64,000 bases of DNA from Halosolutus amylolyticus. GTDB lineage: Archaea; Halobacteriota; Halobacteria; Halobacteriales; Natrialbaceae. Below are positions 9,915-32,728 of this stretch, piece by piece. How positions within the stretch are numbered: position 1 is the stretch's first letter; the number at the start of each line of letters is the position of its first letter. The notes under the pieces were generated by a model. The model was not told the DNA's origin and ran no database searches. It was given only the letters and a program-made list of their open reading frames with translations. A program made the position numbers and the translations under genes. Location: NCBI RefSeq assembly GCF_023566055.1, contig NZ_JALIQP010000006.1:124001-188000 (forward strand), given 5' to 3'.

Positions 9915-11342
9915 ATGGGAAGTGCATTAGCCGAGTCGGTCGAAGAGACGACCATGCAAGCGACCCTGCTGGGCGGGGTGTTCGAATCGCTCCGCATCGG
10001 CGTCGGCTTCCTCTGGACGGCAGCCTGGGCGATCATCATGGGGCTCACGATCACGAGTCTCGTACAGGTGTACGTCTCCAAGGAGCGGATGGCCCGGGTC
10101 CTCGGCGACGGCGACCTCGGCGGACTCGCGAGGGCGACGGTGTTCGGGGCGGCGAGCAGTGGCTGTAGTTTCGGTGCCGTGGCTATCGGCAAGGGACTGT
10201 TCAAGAAAGGGGCGCACGCGGTGAACTTCCTCGCCTTCATGTTCGCCTCGACGAATCTCATCGTCGAACTCGGGTTGATGATCCTGCTCCTCCTCGGCTG
10301 GGAGTTCCTCCTCGCGGAACTTCTCGGCGGACTCGTTCTCATCGCAGTCATGGCGCTACTCGTTCATCACACTCTCCCGGAGACGCTGTTCAACGAGGTT
10401 CGCGCGGAGCTCAACCGACGCGACCACGACCACGGCGTCACGGAAGACCCGACCTGTGGGATGGAAGGGACAGACGAGTACTCGATCGTGACCGACGGGG
10501 GAGAGACCCTGAAATTCTGTTCCGAGGGGTGCCTGGAAACCTACCGGCAAGCGGCAGCGGGTCGGGGAGGCTGGCGAGACGAACTTCGTTCGTGGGGCGG
10601 CTGGTACAAACTCGGCAACCAGTATCGCAAGGAGTGGTCGATGATCTGGACGGACGTCGTCGCGGGGTTTCTCGTCTCGGGGTTCGTCATCGTGTTCGTC
10701 CCACAGTGGGTCTGGAACACGCTCTTCCTCCAGGGCGATGGTCTGCTGGTGACCGCCGAAAACGCGGTCATGGGCGTCGCGATCGCCGTCATCAGCTTCG
10801 TCGGGAGTATAGGGAACATCCCCTTCGCCGTCGCACTCTGGAGCGGCGGTATCAGCTTCGCCGGCGTCATCGCGTTCGTCTACGCGGATCTCATCACGAT
10901 CCCCGTATTGAACGTCTATCGGAAGTACTACGGCTGGACGATCATGCTGTACATCCTCGGCGTCTTCTTCGTCACGATGGCGTTCACCGGGTTCGTCATG
11001 GAACTGCTTTTCGACGCCCTCGGGATCGTCCCGAACCTGGCGGGCGGTGAGTTCGCGACCGAACAGACGTACTTCGAACTCGACTACACGTTCTACCTCA
11101 ATCTCGTCGCGTTCGCCCTCTCCGGGTTCCTGCTGTACGTGTATCGACGGGGGCTCGGTGCCCCAGGCCAGTACCGGGACCCCGTCTGTGGGATGCGAAC
11201 CGGCGACGACGGGCCGAGTGCGTCTTTCGACGGCGAAACGTACTACTTCTGTTCGAACACCTGCAAGCGATCGTTCGACGAGGAGCCGGCGAAGTTCGCA
11301 CACAGAGGCCCCCGCATCACGGACGCTGACCACGACCACTGA
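9915..11342 (+). CDS. ArsP/YraQ-type permease with two YHS/TRASH-like metal modules
   Basis: A 475-residue membrane protein of the DUF318/ArsP_1-type permease group. Two half-permease domains of hydrophobic helices (about residues 15-140 and 240-400) each carry a conserved small-residue core, one with SSGCSFGAVAIGKGLFKKGAH and the other with GSIGNIPFAVALWSGG. Between the halves (DPTCGMEGTDEYSI...FCSEGCLETY, about 175-205) and at the C-terminus (DPVCGMRTGDDGPS...FCSNTCKRSF, about 420-455) lie Cys-rich YHS/TRASH-like modules. The tail ends in a His/Asp cluster (DADHDH). This layout suggests a heavy-metal or metalloid transporter or metal-sensing permease. ATG 9915 is used; ATG 9954 is an alternative 27 bases after a TATA-like TATTATTAA. 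Its TGA is the first part of a structured repeat. Confidence 0.85.
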   Translation: MGSALAESVEETTMQATLLGGVFESLRIGVGFLWTAAWAIIMGLTITSLVQVYVSKERMARVLGDGDLGGLARATVFGAASSGCSFGAVAIGKGLFKKGAHAVNFLAFMFASTNLIVELGLMILLLLGWEFLLAELLGGLVLIAVMALLVHHTLPETLFNEVRAELNRRDHDHGVTEDPTCGMEGTDEYSIVTDGGETLKFCSEGCLETYRQAAAGRGGWRDELRSWGGWYKLGNQYRKEWSMIWTDVVAGFLVSGFVIVFVPQWVWNTLFLQGDGLLVTAENAVMGVAIAVISFVGSIGNIPFAVALWSGGISFAGVIAFVYADLITIPVLNVYRKYYGWTIMLYILGVFFVTMAFTGFVMELLFDALGIVPNLAGGEFATEQTYFELDYTFYLNLVAFALSGFLLYVYRRGLGAPGQYRDPVCGMRTGDDGPSASFDGETYYFCSNTCKRSFDEEPAKFAHRGPRITDADHDH

Positions 11343-11423
11343 TACGGATTGCTGTACCGATGTACCGGCGCAACCGCGATCCGGGCGGCGGTTGCGCCGG
11401 AAATGACTTACAGTAAACCGTAT
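11342..11423 (+). repeat. structured repeat element, copy 1 of 3
   Basis: An 82-base nested inverted repeat starting at the A of the permease stop codon. The outer arms are 11342-11356 and 11409-11423, with ATACGG at one end and CCGTAT at the other. The inner arms, 11365-11377 (CCGGCGCAACCGC) and 11388-11400, pair perfectly over 13 bp around a 10-base loop. Copies at 20192 and 32557 share this architecture with compensating changes. Confidence 0.9.
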
Positions 11424-11875
11424 GAGATGCCGACTCGTCTTCGTCCGCTGCAGTCGACGTACGTTTGCGTGCCGAGTCCCGTGATGGAGTCGGCGTGAAC
11501 CTCCCTGATGGTCTCGGCGTCGGTCGGTCTCGGCGTCGGTCGGTCTCGCGTCGCGGATACGCACATGCTGACCTCACCGGTGAAGGTACACAGTCTCTGG
11601 CCCGCGCCCAGTGTCGGGGTCCGAGTCGTCCGATTCCGGTCGACGGACCGATCGGGAGAACGCCGTATTTAATATAGCACTATTTAGTTTATTTGTCGGA
11701 GGCAGGTCAATGAGACGGAGACCAGTTACCGAGGTCCATTTCGGTACCGGGTCGGAATTCCGACTCTCGATCGACCGCCGGAGCCTCGTCGCGGAGTCAG
11801 CGCGCCGATCACGTCGGCTGAATGTCACTCCATCCGAGGTATTTTTTCCTCCGAGTACCAACCTTGAACCGATCG
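11424..11875. other. 452-bp gap between permease repeat and J-domain gene
   Basis: It contains a 16-base direct repeat (GGTCTCGGCGTCGGTC, about 2.3 copies near 11512-11550) and an AT-rich island, TATTTAATATAG, near 11667. Downstream of the island a GGAGG-like site precedes an ATG at 11710. The frame from that ATG runs into the overlapping frame of the J-domain gene with non-protein-like composition, so I do not call it a gene. A T-rich box at about 11838-11847 probably drives the J-domain gene. Confidence 0.5.
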
Positions 11876-18813: not shown

Positions 18814-20192
18814 CCGCCGCCCAACACGGATCCCGCCGCCGGTTCCTCGCGGGGCTCGCGACGGCGTCCGGGATTGCCGTCGCCGGATGTGCCGACCTCC
18901 CCTGGGAGGACGAGGGGGCGTCGACGGGGTTCTCTCGATCGGACGCCGAGGAGATCCTGGCCGACTCTGAACCGGCCGTTCCGGACGTGGTTCGACCGGT
19001 GCCGGTCGAACCAGCGGCGAAGGCGCTCGACGCGCAACGCACGCGCGTCGACGATCTCCTGTCTGACGTGCCGGACGCCATACCCGCAGACGACGTGCCG
19101 AACGGCGTCGTCAGGGAATCGATCGCCGATCGTCGGGACAGCGCGATCGAGTACCGCGACGAGGCGGCCGACGCGTCCGGGGCCGATCGATACCACGCCC
19201 TGCGGACGCTCGGACGCGCTCGCAAGTCTGCCCGGGCGTCGGCGACGACGCTCGCGGCGATCGAGGCCGAGACCGAGGCGCTTCTCGCGGAACTTTCGGA
19301 CGAGCGCACCGCCGTCGAATCGGCCGTCGACGACCGGTGCGACGGCATCGCCTACCGCGGCGAGGACGGCGACGACGGACGGCTGCGTGCGGCGCTGTTC
19401 TTCGCCGAACTCGAGCGTGATCTTCAGCGAGCGAGTCACCGAGTCGGGCGATGGAGCGTCGACGACACCGCCACCGTCATCGACCTCGGTGGGGCCGCCG
19501 GCGACCTCGAGTTCGCGACGGCGACGACGGCCATCTGGGACCACTGTACCGACCGGTACGCGGCCGATACCGGCGATCGGGTCGACCTCGAACCGGTCTT
19601 TGCCGACGCCCTCGAGACGTCGGCCGATCGCGCCGGGGCGGTCGACCTCCCCGACCAGGACGGCGACGACTGGCTCTCGACCCTCGTCGACGGCGAGGTC
19701 GACACCGGCTTCGACCAGACCGTCCTCTGGGAGGCAGTCAGGCCGGTGTACGACGCACGGGACGGACTCCGTGACGCCGACGGAATCGATTCGACCGGGC
19801 GGAACCTGGCGAATGGACTCCGGGACGCGCTCCGGTTCGAACAGGAGTACCGGGCGTTCGAACGCGTCCGCGACCGGTTCGAAGCGGGGGAACTCGCCAG
19901 ACCCGACTCGATCGATCCCATCGGTTCGGAGCGCACGGCCGCGATTTCGGCGGCGGAATCGGCCGCCGAGGAACTGACGCGACCGTCACTCGGAACCGAT
20001 CGGCTCACGGAGACGATCCGGACGCTTTCCTGGACCGACGACAAGATACGCCGCAAAGCCGACGGCGATCCCGGCGTCGTCGTCTCGCTGGCGGGCGAGT
20101 TCGGCGAGTACGTCTGCCTGCGGGCCCGGTTCGAGGTCCTCCCCGAGGCGGTCGACGCGTTCCGGGGGCGACTGCTCGACCCCGAACCCTGA
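18810..20192 (+). CDS. Tat-type lipoprotein, 460 aa
   Basis: Begins with MTAAQHGSRRRFLAGLATAS, a Tat motif plus hydrophobic core, and a lipobox VAGC. The long mature part is acidic and largely helical (many Ala/Asp/Glu/Arg-rich helices, possible coiled-coil sections near 110-230). There is no recognisable catalytic domain. Start chosen by the ATGA overlap with the upstream lipoprotein gene; the frame is open further upstream only inside that gene. The stop codon forms the left end of structured repeat copy 2. The paired arrangement of two lipoproteins suggests joint work at the cell surface. Function unknown. Confidence 0.85.
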   Translation: MTAAQHGSRRRFLAGLATASGIAVAGCADLPWEDEGASTGFSRSDAEEILADSEPAVPDVVRPVPVEPAAKALDAQRTRVDDLLSDVPDAIPADDVPNGVVRESIADRRDSAIEYRDEAADASGADRYHALRTLGRARKSARASATTLAAIEAETEALLAELSDERTAVESAVDDRCDGIAYRGEDGDDGRLRAALFFAELERDLQRASHRVGRWSVDDTATVIDLGGAAGDLEFATATTAIWDHCTDRYAADTGDRVDLEPVFADALETSADRAGAVDLPDQDGDDWLSTLVDGEVDTGFDQTVLWEAVRPVYDARDGLRDADGIDSTGRNLANGLRDALRFEQEYRAFERVRDRFEAGELARPDSIDPIGSERTAAISAAESAAEELTRPSLGTDRLTETIRTLSWTDDKIRRKADGDPGVVVSLAGEFGEYVCLRARFEVLPEAVDAFRGRLLDPEP

Positions 20193-20272
20193 TACGGTCT
20201 GCTGTACCGGTTTCCCGGCACAACCGCAGGCGAGTTCGCCGTTGTGCCGGAACTGACTACAGCGGACCGTAT
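20192..20272 (+). repeat. structured repeat element, copy 2 of 3
   Basis: An 81-base nested inverted repeat beginning at the A of the lipoprotein TGA. The outer arms 20192-20206 and 20258-20272 pair over 15 positions with one G-U. The inner arms 20215-20227 and 20238-20250 pair over 13 positions with one C-C mismatch; the core is CCGGCACAAC/GTTGTGCCGG. Relative to copy 1 the inner stem has a G-C to A-T compensated change. Confidence 0.9.
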
Positions 20273-20354
20273 GACGACCACAGGATTCGATCGCCACCGC
20301 CAGAATCGATCGGCCCGTCCCGCCGACGCCGCGAGATAGACCGATCCAGACTCC

Positions 20355-31822: not shown

Positions 31823-32557
31823 ATGACTACCACGAGTTCACTCGACCGATCGACCGCGGCGCTGGACAGTCTGTGTCAGTCCCTCGCGAGCGATCGTCGC
31901 CGTGCGATCCTCCGTCTCGTCCCCGACCCTTCGTCGGACGGAATCGAGAAAGCCGACCTTGCGACCCGACTCGTCGCAGTAACGAACGATAAACCCCCCG
32001 GCGCAGTGACCGACGACGAACGCCGGCGGTCCGAGATCGAACTCGCCCACCACGATCTCCCCGCCCTGCAAGACGGTGGCCTGATCGCGACGCGCGAGGA
32101 TGGGGCCGTGGTCGCGACCGACCATCCAGCGGTCGACGAAAACGGGATCGACGACGCGTTAGCGGAACGCTCGGATGCCGACTGCGACGCGGTGTTCGAG
32201 GCGCTCGCGGACGCACGTCGGCGGACGGTCCTTTCGGTCCTCGAGAACGAACGCGGATCCCTCTCCGCGCGATCGCTCGCGCGTTCGGTCGCGGCCCGAG
32301 AAATCGGAGCGAGCGAGCGATCGGTCCCGTCCGATCGCGTGGATCGCGTGCTCGCGTCGCTCGTCCACGTTCACCTGCCGACGCTCGCAGACGCCGGCCT
32401 CGTTGCGTACGACGACTCGGCGGGTCGCGTCGGCTACGAGGGTCACCCCCTGCTCCGGACCGGGTTGATAGATCTCGGTCGCGATACGGAGACGACCGAC
32501 GAGGAAGCTATCGACGCCGTCACGGAGTTCGCGGTGCTCGCACCGACCGGTGACTGA
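31823..32557 (+). CDS. tandem HTH protein (two DUF7344-like domains)
   Basis: A 244-residue regulator with two related halves: LDSLCQSLASDRRRAILRLVP...EIELAHHDLPALQDGGLIA (about 14-95) and VFEALADARRRTVLSVLEN...VLASLVHVHLPTLADAGLVAYDD (about 118-215). Each is a winged-helix ArsR-like module of the haloarchaeal DUF7344 type. The two-domain arrangement mimics a dimer within one chain. No ligand domain is seen. Its TGA is the left end of structured repeat copy 3. Located 287 bases downstream of dph2. Confidence 0.9.
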   Translation: MTTTSSLDRSTAALDSLCQSLASDRRRAILRLVPDPSSDGIEKADLATRLVAVTNDKPPGAVTDDERRRSEIELAHHDLPALQDGGLIATREDGAVVATDHPAVDENGIDDALAERSDADCDAVFEALADARRRTVLSVLENERGSLSARSLARSVAAREIGASERSVPSDRVDRVLASLVHVHLPTLADAGLVAYDDSAGRVGYEGHPLLRTGLIDLGRDTETTDEEAIDAVTEFAVLAPTGD

Positions 32558-32637
32558 TACGGATTGCTGTCCCGATGTGCCGGCACGACCGCGACCCGTC
32601 GGCGGTTGTGCCGGGACCAACGGACAGTGGTCCGTAT
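32557..32637 (+). repeat. structured repeat element, copy 3 of 3
   Basis: An 81-base nested inverted repeat beginning at the A of the regulator TGA. The outer arms 32557-32572 and 32622-32637 pair over 16 positions with three G-U type pairs. The inner arms 32580-32592 and 32602-32614 pair over 13 positions with one G-U. Relative to copies 1 and 2 the outer-arm ends show a TA-to-CC compensated change (CTGTCC/GGACAG instead of CTGTA/TACAG). Confidence 0.9.
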
Positions 32638-32728
32638 GGCCGGACTCGACACCGGCACGCGCCGCCTTCAGGATGCGACGCGATCGGAGACGACAACACT
32701 TACCCGGTCGGTCCGCACACGCACCAGT

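Follow-up and report, generated by a model that had tools for sequence, protein, structure and literature searches.

The hairpin repeat that follows a permease gene in the analysed 64,000-nucleotide stretch of Halosolutus amylolyticus DNA (hereafter the window) is most probably a non-autonomous, MITE-like element of haloarchaea, which is moved by a cut-and-join transposase acting in trans and duplicates a TNA target. Its palindromic core of ~80 bp, bounded by the inverted ends TACGG.../...CCGTA, would be cut and joined by the trans-supplied enzyme at a 3-bp staggered TNA target, nearly always TGA in the context GAC-TGA-GTC, and the target is duplicated in the process. As the element favours TGA stop codons and leaves the left TGA in frame, the host gene retains its stop and its protein is unchanged, such that copies could accumulate without harm (safe-site insertion). 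In this view, the inner hairpin is a feature of the DNA, with inversions against the arms but preserved pairing from one subfamily to the next. Mobility, the 3-bp duplication, the target motif, the enrichment at stop codons and the inner inversion are shown by the data; what we infer here are the cut-and-join (DDE-like) chemistry, the supply of the enzyme in trans and the reason for the stop-codon preference.

Three copies are located on the forward strand of the window. The mobile core of copy 1 (80 bp, TACGG...CCGTA; 11343..11422, +), delimited by sequence, fold and the empty sites of other copies, follows the ORF of an ArsP_1 permease with YHS/TRASH domain (9915..11342, +), its host gene. 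The outer stem pairs 11343-11356 with 11409-11422 and encloses a 13-bp inner hairpin with a 10-base loop. The left TGA (11340..11342, +) is the stop codon of the permease ORF and would at the same time form the left half of the target-site duplication, the second half being the right TGA (11423..11425, +), which is out of the reading frame; for this copy, the duplication is deduced from the empty sites at other copies, as no collinear empty site for it occurred in the sister DNA compared. Copy 2 (core of 79 bp; 20193..20271, +) resides between the TGA stop codon of an unnamed protein (20190-20192) and a second TGA (20272-20274), and copy 3 (core of 79 bp; 32558..32636, +) between the TGA stop codon of a DUF7344 gene (32555-32557) and a decayed TGG (32637-32639). 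The ends CTGATACGG and CCGTATG are common to all three copies (~11343, ~20193 and ~32558), each of which is found at the stop of a gene, in agreement with the original prediction. The double stem described there was likewise recovered with respect to the 13-bp inner stem, the 10-base loop and the long outer stem, which comprises 14 pairs in the mobile core. The element had also been placed at 11342-11423, starting at the A of the permease TGA and supplying the stop codon. This has to be revised, as the core spans 11343-11422, the TGA belongs to the duplicated target, and empty sites show insertion at a pre-existing TGA that was then duplicated. The RNA fold of copy 1, comprising the 13-bp inner stem and the long outer stem, was calculated at -48.7 kcal/mol; z scores of the three copies amounted to -6.2, -7.1 and -5.6, with none of 200 shuffles being as stable. 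No Rfam match above the gathering score was detected in the window.

The assumption of a repeat family is borne out by further copies in the genome and in relatives. In the whole genome, 102 exact ATACGG...CCGTAT end pairs were counted, a few of them chance spacings, whereas reversing the pattern as a control gave none. A DNA search of this genome returned 187 first-look candidates, 40 of which were scored and yielded 80 matches over both strands. Overall, the copy number in this genome is over a hundred. A blind scan for a TNA repeat with stem and inner hairpin retrieved 27 elements from 1.66 Mb of this genome, 26 of them with TACGG ends, and none from 680 kb of the same-genus sister genome (G002). 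The latter contains three matches, all within one region; genome G001 has no significant match. With a covariance model derived from 30 copies, matches were obtained in 49 of 155 genomes, representing 25 of 58 genera of the haloarchaeal order. Carriers include Natrialba, Natrinema, Natronorubrum, Natronococcus, Halobiforma, Natronolimnohabitans, Natrarchaeobius and others. Among the relatives, G026, G114, G130 and G147 are rich in the element and G038, G057 and G089 poor. In a sparser phylum-wide sample, five genomes matched, all from the same order. Neither the viral contigs nor the phage records searched contained a match.

The element is mobile and duplicates 3 bp upon insertion. For much of the DNA compared, G002 and this genome are collinear, with 85-90 % identity. 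The empty sites of G002 read GGCGAC-TGA-GAAC, ACCTCC-TGA-ATGC and TCTTC-TGA-GAGGG, where the filled form is TGA[element]TGA. The counterpart of window copy 2 reads AACCC-TGA-CGAAC, i.e., a single TGA followed by CGA, and the two flanks of one copy overlap by exactly 3 bp in G002. The single TGA at the empty sites implies that TGA became TGA-element-TGA on insertion. A TA duplication of the IS630 type is ruled out, because at the empty sites no TA separates the TGA from the right flank. TGA is directly repeated on both sides at 54 of 73 characterised places (two of the 73 being chance hits inside genes). Among 74 copies with a left TGA, 61 also possess the right one; the remainder are one-step decays, the right TGA having changed to CGA, GGA, TGG, TGT or TGC with the left TGA retained, as expected if selection acts on the stop codon only. 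The core lies between the TGAs in either orientation (26 and 16 copies of the main subfamily). In other genera, TGA flanks both sides at 35 of 42 scanned places, and at 70 of 86 in named haloarchaeal loci. Among the few sites which do not fit a TNA duplication are C2:196478 and C2:268510 with CGA / GAx flanks.

The target extends beyond the TGA itself. Compared to 532 control TGA stops, the target logo is enriched for G at -3 (80 % vs 49 %), A at -2 (64 % vs 42 %), C at -1 (86 % vs 51 %) and G at +3 (61 % vs 33 %), yielding the near-symmetric favoured target GAC-TGA-GTC. Of the 41 real copies in 1.2 Mb of contig C2, at least 29 coincide exactly with a predicted stop, and reading of the sequence adds about five; this share is approximate, the stops having been called with a home-made gene caller. 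Motif-weighted non-coding TGA/TCA sites would lead to an expected stop share of 20.6 % (vs 29/41, p = 7e-12), which rises to 54 % when limited to sites ≤100 bp 3' of a stop. Elsewhere in the haloarchaea, 38 of 76 copies, about half, are on stops, and 4 of 10 annotated plasmid copies exactly end an annotated gene. The stop-codon preference is strong, not absolute. That an enzyme of an undescribed class, acting on a hairpin DNA substrate, is directed to translation stops by something beyond the GACTGAGTC sequence, e.g., a gene-end process which exposes the site, can be proposed only tentatively.

Which enzyme moves the element was approached via the flanks and via candidate genes. TGA flanks alone fit two models, target duplication or a right-end TGA carried by the element as in Y1 elements. 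In the latter case, a Y1 (IS200/IS605, RAYT) transposase would move the repeat as single-stranded DNA, in the manner of REP elements or PATEs, with the right TGA as part of the element. The conserved covarying hairpin, the three Y1 transposases encoded in the genome and the reported provision of stop codons by GTAG REPs (PMC3733652) speak for this reading, and copies with TGA flanks fit it as well as they fit a duplication. However, when 155 genomes were searched for copies with flanks other than TGA, eight TAA/TAA copies, in which both flanks have changed together, were detected next to twelve mixed ones; independent mutation of the two sides would produce about 0.01-0.02 TAA/TAA copies. This excess identifies the 3 bp as a TNA target-site duplication rather than element sequence, and the paired TAA flanks are not explained by movement of the IS200/IS605 type (Y1), in which the target is not duplicated. 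Both core orientations relative to TGA and the near-symmetric target logo likewise stand against a Y1 mechanism, and the proposed search for an IS200/IS605-type TnpA with matching hairpin ended with three Y1 genes that have no element within 1.5 kb, leaving this reading very improbable.

Duplications of 3 bp of the TNA/TWA type are classically produced by IS5-group (IS1031/IS427-like) and PIF/Harbinger transposases. A MITE of either type would be a narrower version of the preferred MITE-like reading and is fitted by the length and sequence of the duplication, yet it appears rather unlikely from the matching of DDE genes with the Pfam models DDE_Tnp_1 and DDE_Tnp_4. DDE_Tnp_4 is absent from 27 genomes and was therefore discarded as mover; DDE_Tnp_1 was rejected since none of its seven matches in this genome has the element's ends, the repeats being of 7-8 bp at those loci for which one could be identified. 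No transposase moving the element was identified in the loci and genomes searched. Paired-end scans of ~2.3 Mb for an autonomous relative with TACGG ends gave only neighbouring small copies, and the loci returned for unpaired ends in 11 genomes contained decayed copies beside ordinary genes and no autonomous element. This lack of an autonomous relative in ~2.3 Mb and the checked loci counts against the MITE-like reading, as does the covariation of the inner stem, for which an ordinary MITE has no need, its ends being sufficient. With about 40 % of this genome read, an autonomous copy may be present in it. Apart from a known autonomous partner, all features of MITEs that were tested are present: inverted ends, a short non-coding multi-copy core, and a target-site duplication with empty sites, in line with the MITE named among the initial suggestions.

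The covariation of the stems that was claimed from the three window copies is statistically supported. In the 30-copy alignment, 92.8 % of cells are paired, dropping to 29-41 % in slid-partner controls; both-side changes occur at 10 of 27 pairs (34 such cells vs 6.7 in shuffles), and subfamilies that differ in their inner stem (CCGGCGCAACCGC, CCGCCGATCGCC, CCGGTGATCGCC) still pair. Together with the strong, stable fold immediately 3' of the stop codon and the large fraction of copies at stops, this would suit an RNA-level element (terminator, 3'-end processing or mRNA-stability hairpin) selected after stop codons. Covariation, however, does not imply that selection acts on the RNA form. G-U tolerance had been taken to argue for RNA, but mismatches read on the strand of the host gene amount to 63 GU : 21 AC in one element orientation and to 3 GU : 18 AC in the opposite one (summed 86:64, p = 0.09, near balance). 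Such a flip with orientation is what a mismatch fixed in the master DNA copy would produce, not tolerance at the RNA level, and the deduction of an RNA function from G-U pairs fails. The suggested terminator is unsupported by either the downstream gene arrangement or T-tracts: a close codirectional (operon-like) next gene is found at 22 % of inserted stops (n = 27) and 22 % of other TGA stops, and T-tracts show no excess (7 % vs 4 % of controls). Moreover, orthologous genes of G002 do without the element. Selection for an RNA-level role is hence hardly to be expected, and the sequences analysed give no sign of a host function.

Other DNAs are known to undergo small inversions at stem-loops. 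Relative to fixed arms, 31 copies of the main subfamily carry the loop as GATCCGGGCG and 19 as CGCCCGGATC. Among 13 copy pairs without differences outside the loop, the loops are opposite in five, and inverted-loop copies can be otherwise identical (e.g., C2:328958 and C2:588442). The inner hairpin flips faster than bases change, which indicates that it acts at the DNA level.

A search of the open-access literature, with most subscription papers outside its scope, returned no description of the element. MITEs and SMRs of Haloquadratum walsbyi are non-coding, 80-110 bp long and present in tens of copies with prominent inverted ends; SMR ends are unrelated to known transposons, and SMRs insert into other mobile elements without duplicating the target (PMC3119063). 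The present element is likewise short, non-coding and multi-copy with inverted ends, but differs from SMRs by its TNA duplication, stop-codon preference and covarying inner hairpin. GTAG REPs associated with RAYT are 20-40 bp long, carry a GTAG tag and a Y1 association, and their termini often give the stop codon of flanking ORFs (PMC3733652). They share with the present element the nature of high-copy short palindromes at gene ends; the latter, in contrast, lacks the GTAG tag, generates a 3-bp duplication and meets a stop codon that pre-exists. The IS605-derived PATEs of haloarchaea are palindromic and occur in high copy without terminal inverted repeats or target duplication (PMC3119063), whereas the present element, similarly palindromic, high-copy and haloarchaeal, has both. 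Location at stops is thus not unprecedented (REP ends, PMC3733652); exact rebuilding of an existing stop was not encountered in the literature searched.

The element offers a clean case of target choice making insertion harmless, with the stop codon as target and the duplication rebuilding the stop. Points of interest are the enzyme behind the element and the stop-codon preference. The element is abundant across haloarchaea; filled and empty sister genomes, a short motif and a clear flank signature make for a ready system for finding the enzyme, and the fast inner inversion provides a natural record of DNA hairpin processing in archaea.

Several minor observations were made along the way. A second hairpin element of other sequence, TACTGTCGG...CCGGCAGTA, with TTA on both sides, was noticed in the present genome (G000 C7:28609-28686; L192:8609-8686) and possibly represents a sister family with the same architecture. 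Adjoining or tandem copies, several with one common TGA, occur at L078:14108-14270 and L039:1501-1662 as well as in a relative (G114; L220, L222 and L224), the second copy of such pairs often beginning with GACGG instead of TACGG. Copies with near-identical flanks (GATTTA ... TGAGTGGTTCC; L229/L264, L269 and L251) were observed in genomes of two genera, and twice within the relative G130. The only copies seen in G002 (L115:18185-18698; L002 in G000 C5) adjoin F420 (cof) biosynthesis-like genes and occupy the same sites as in G000, which suggests transfer of that region between lineages.
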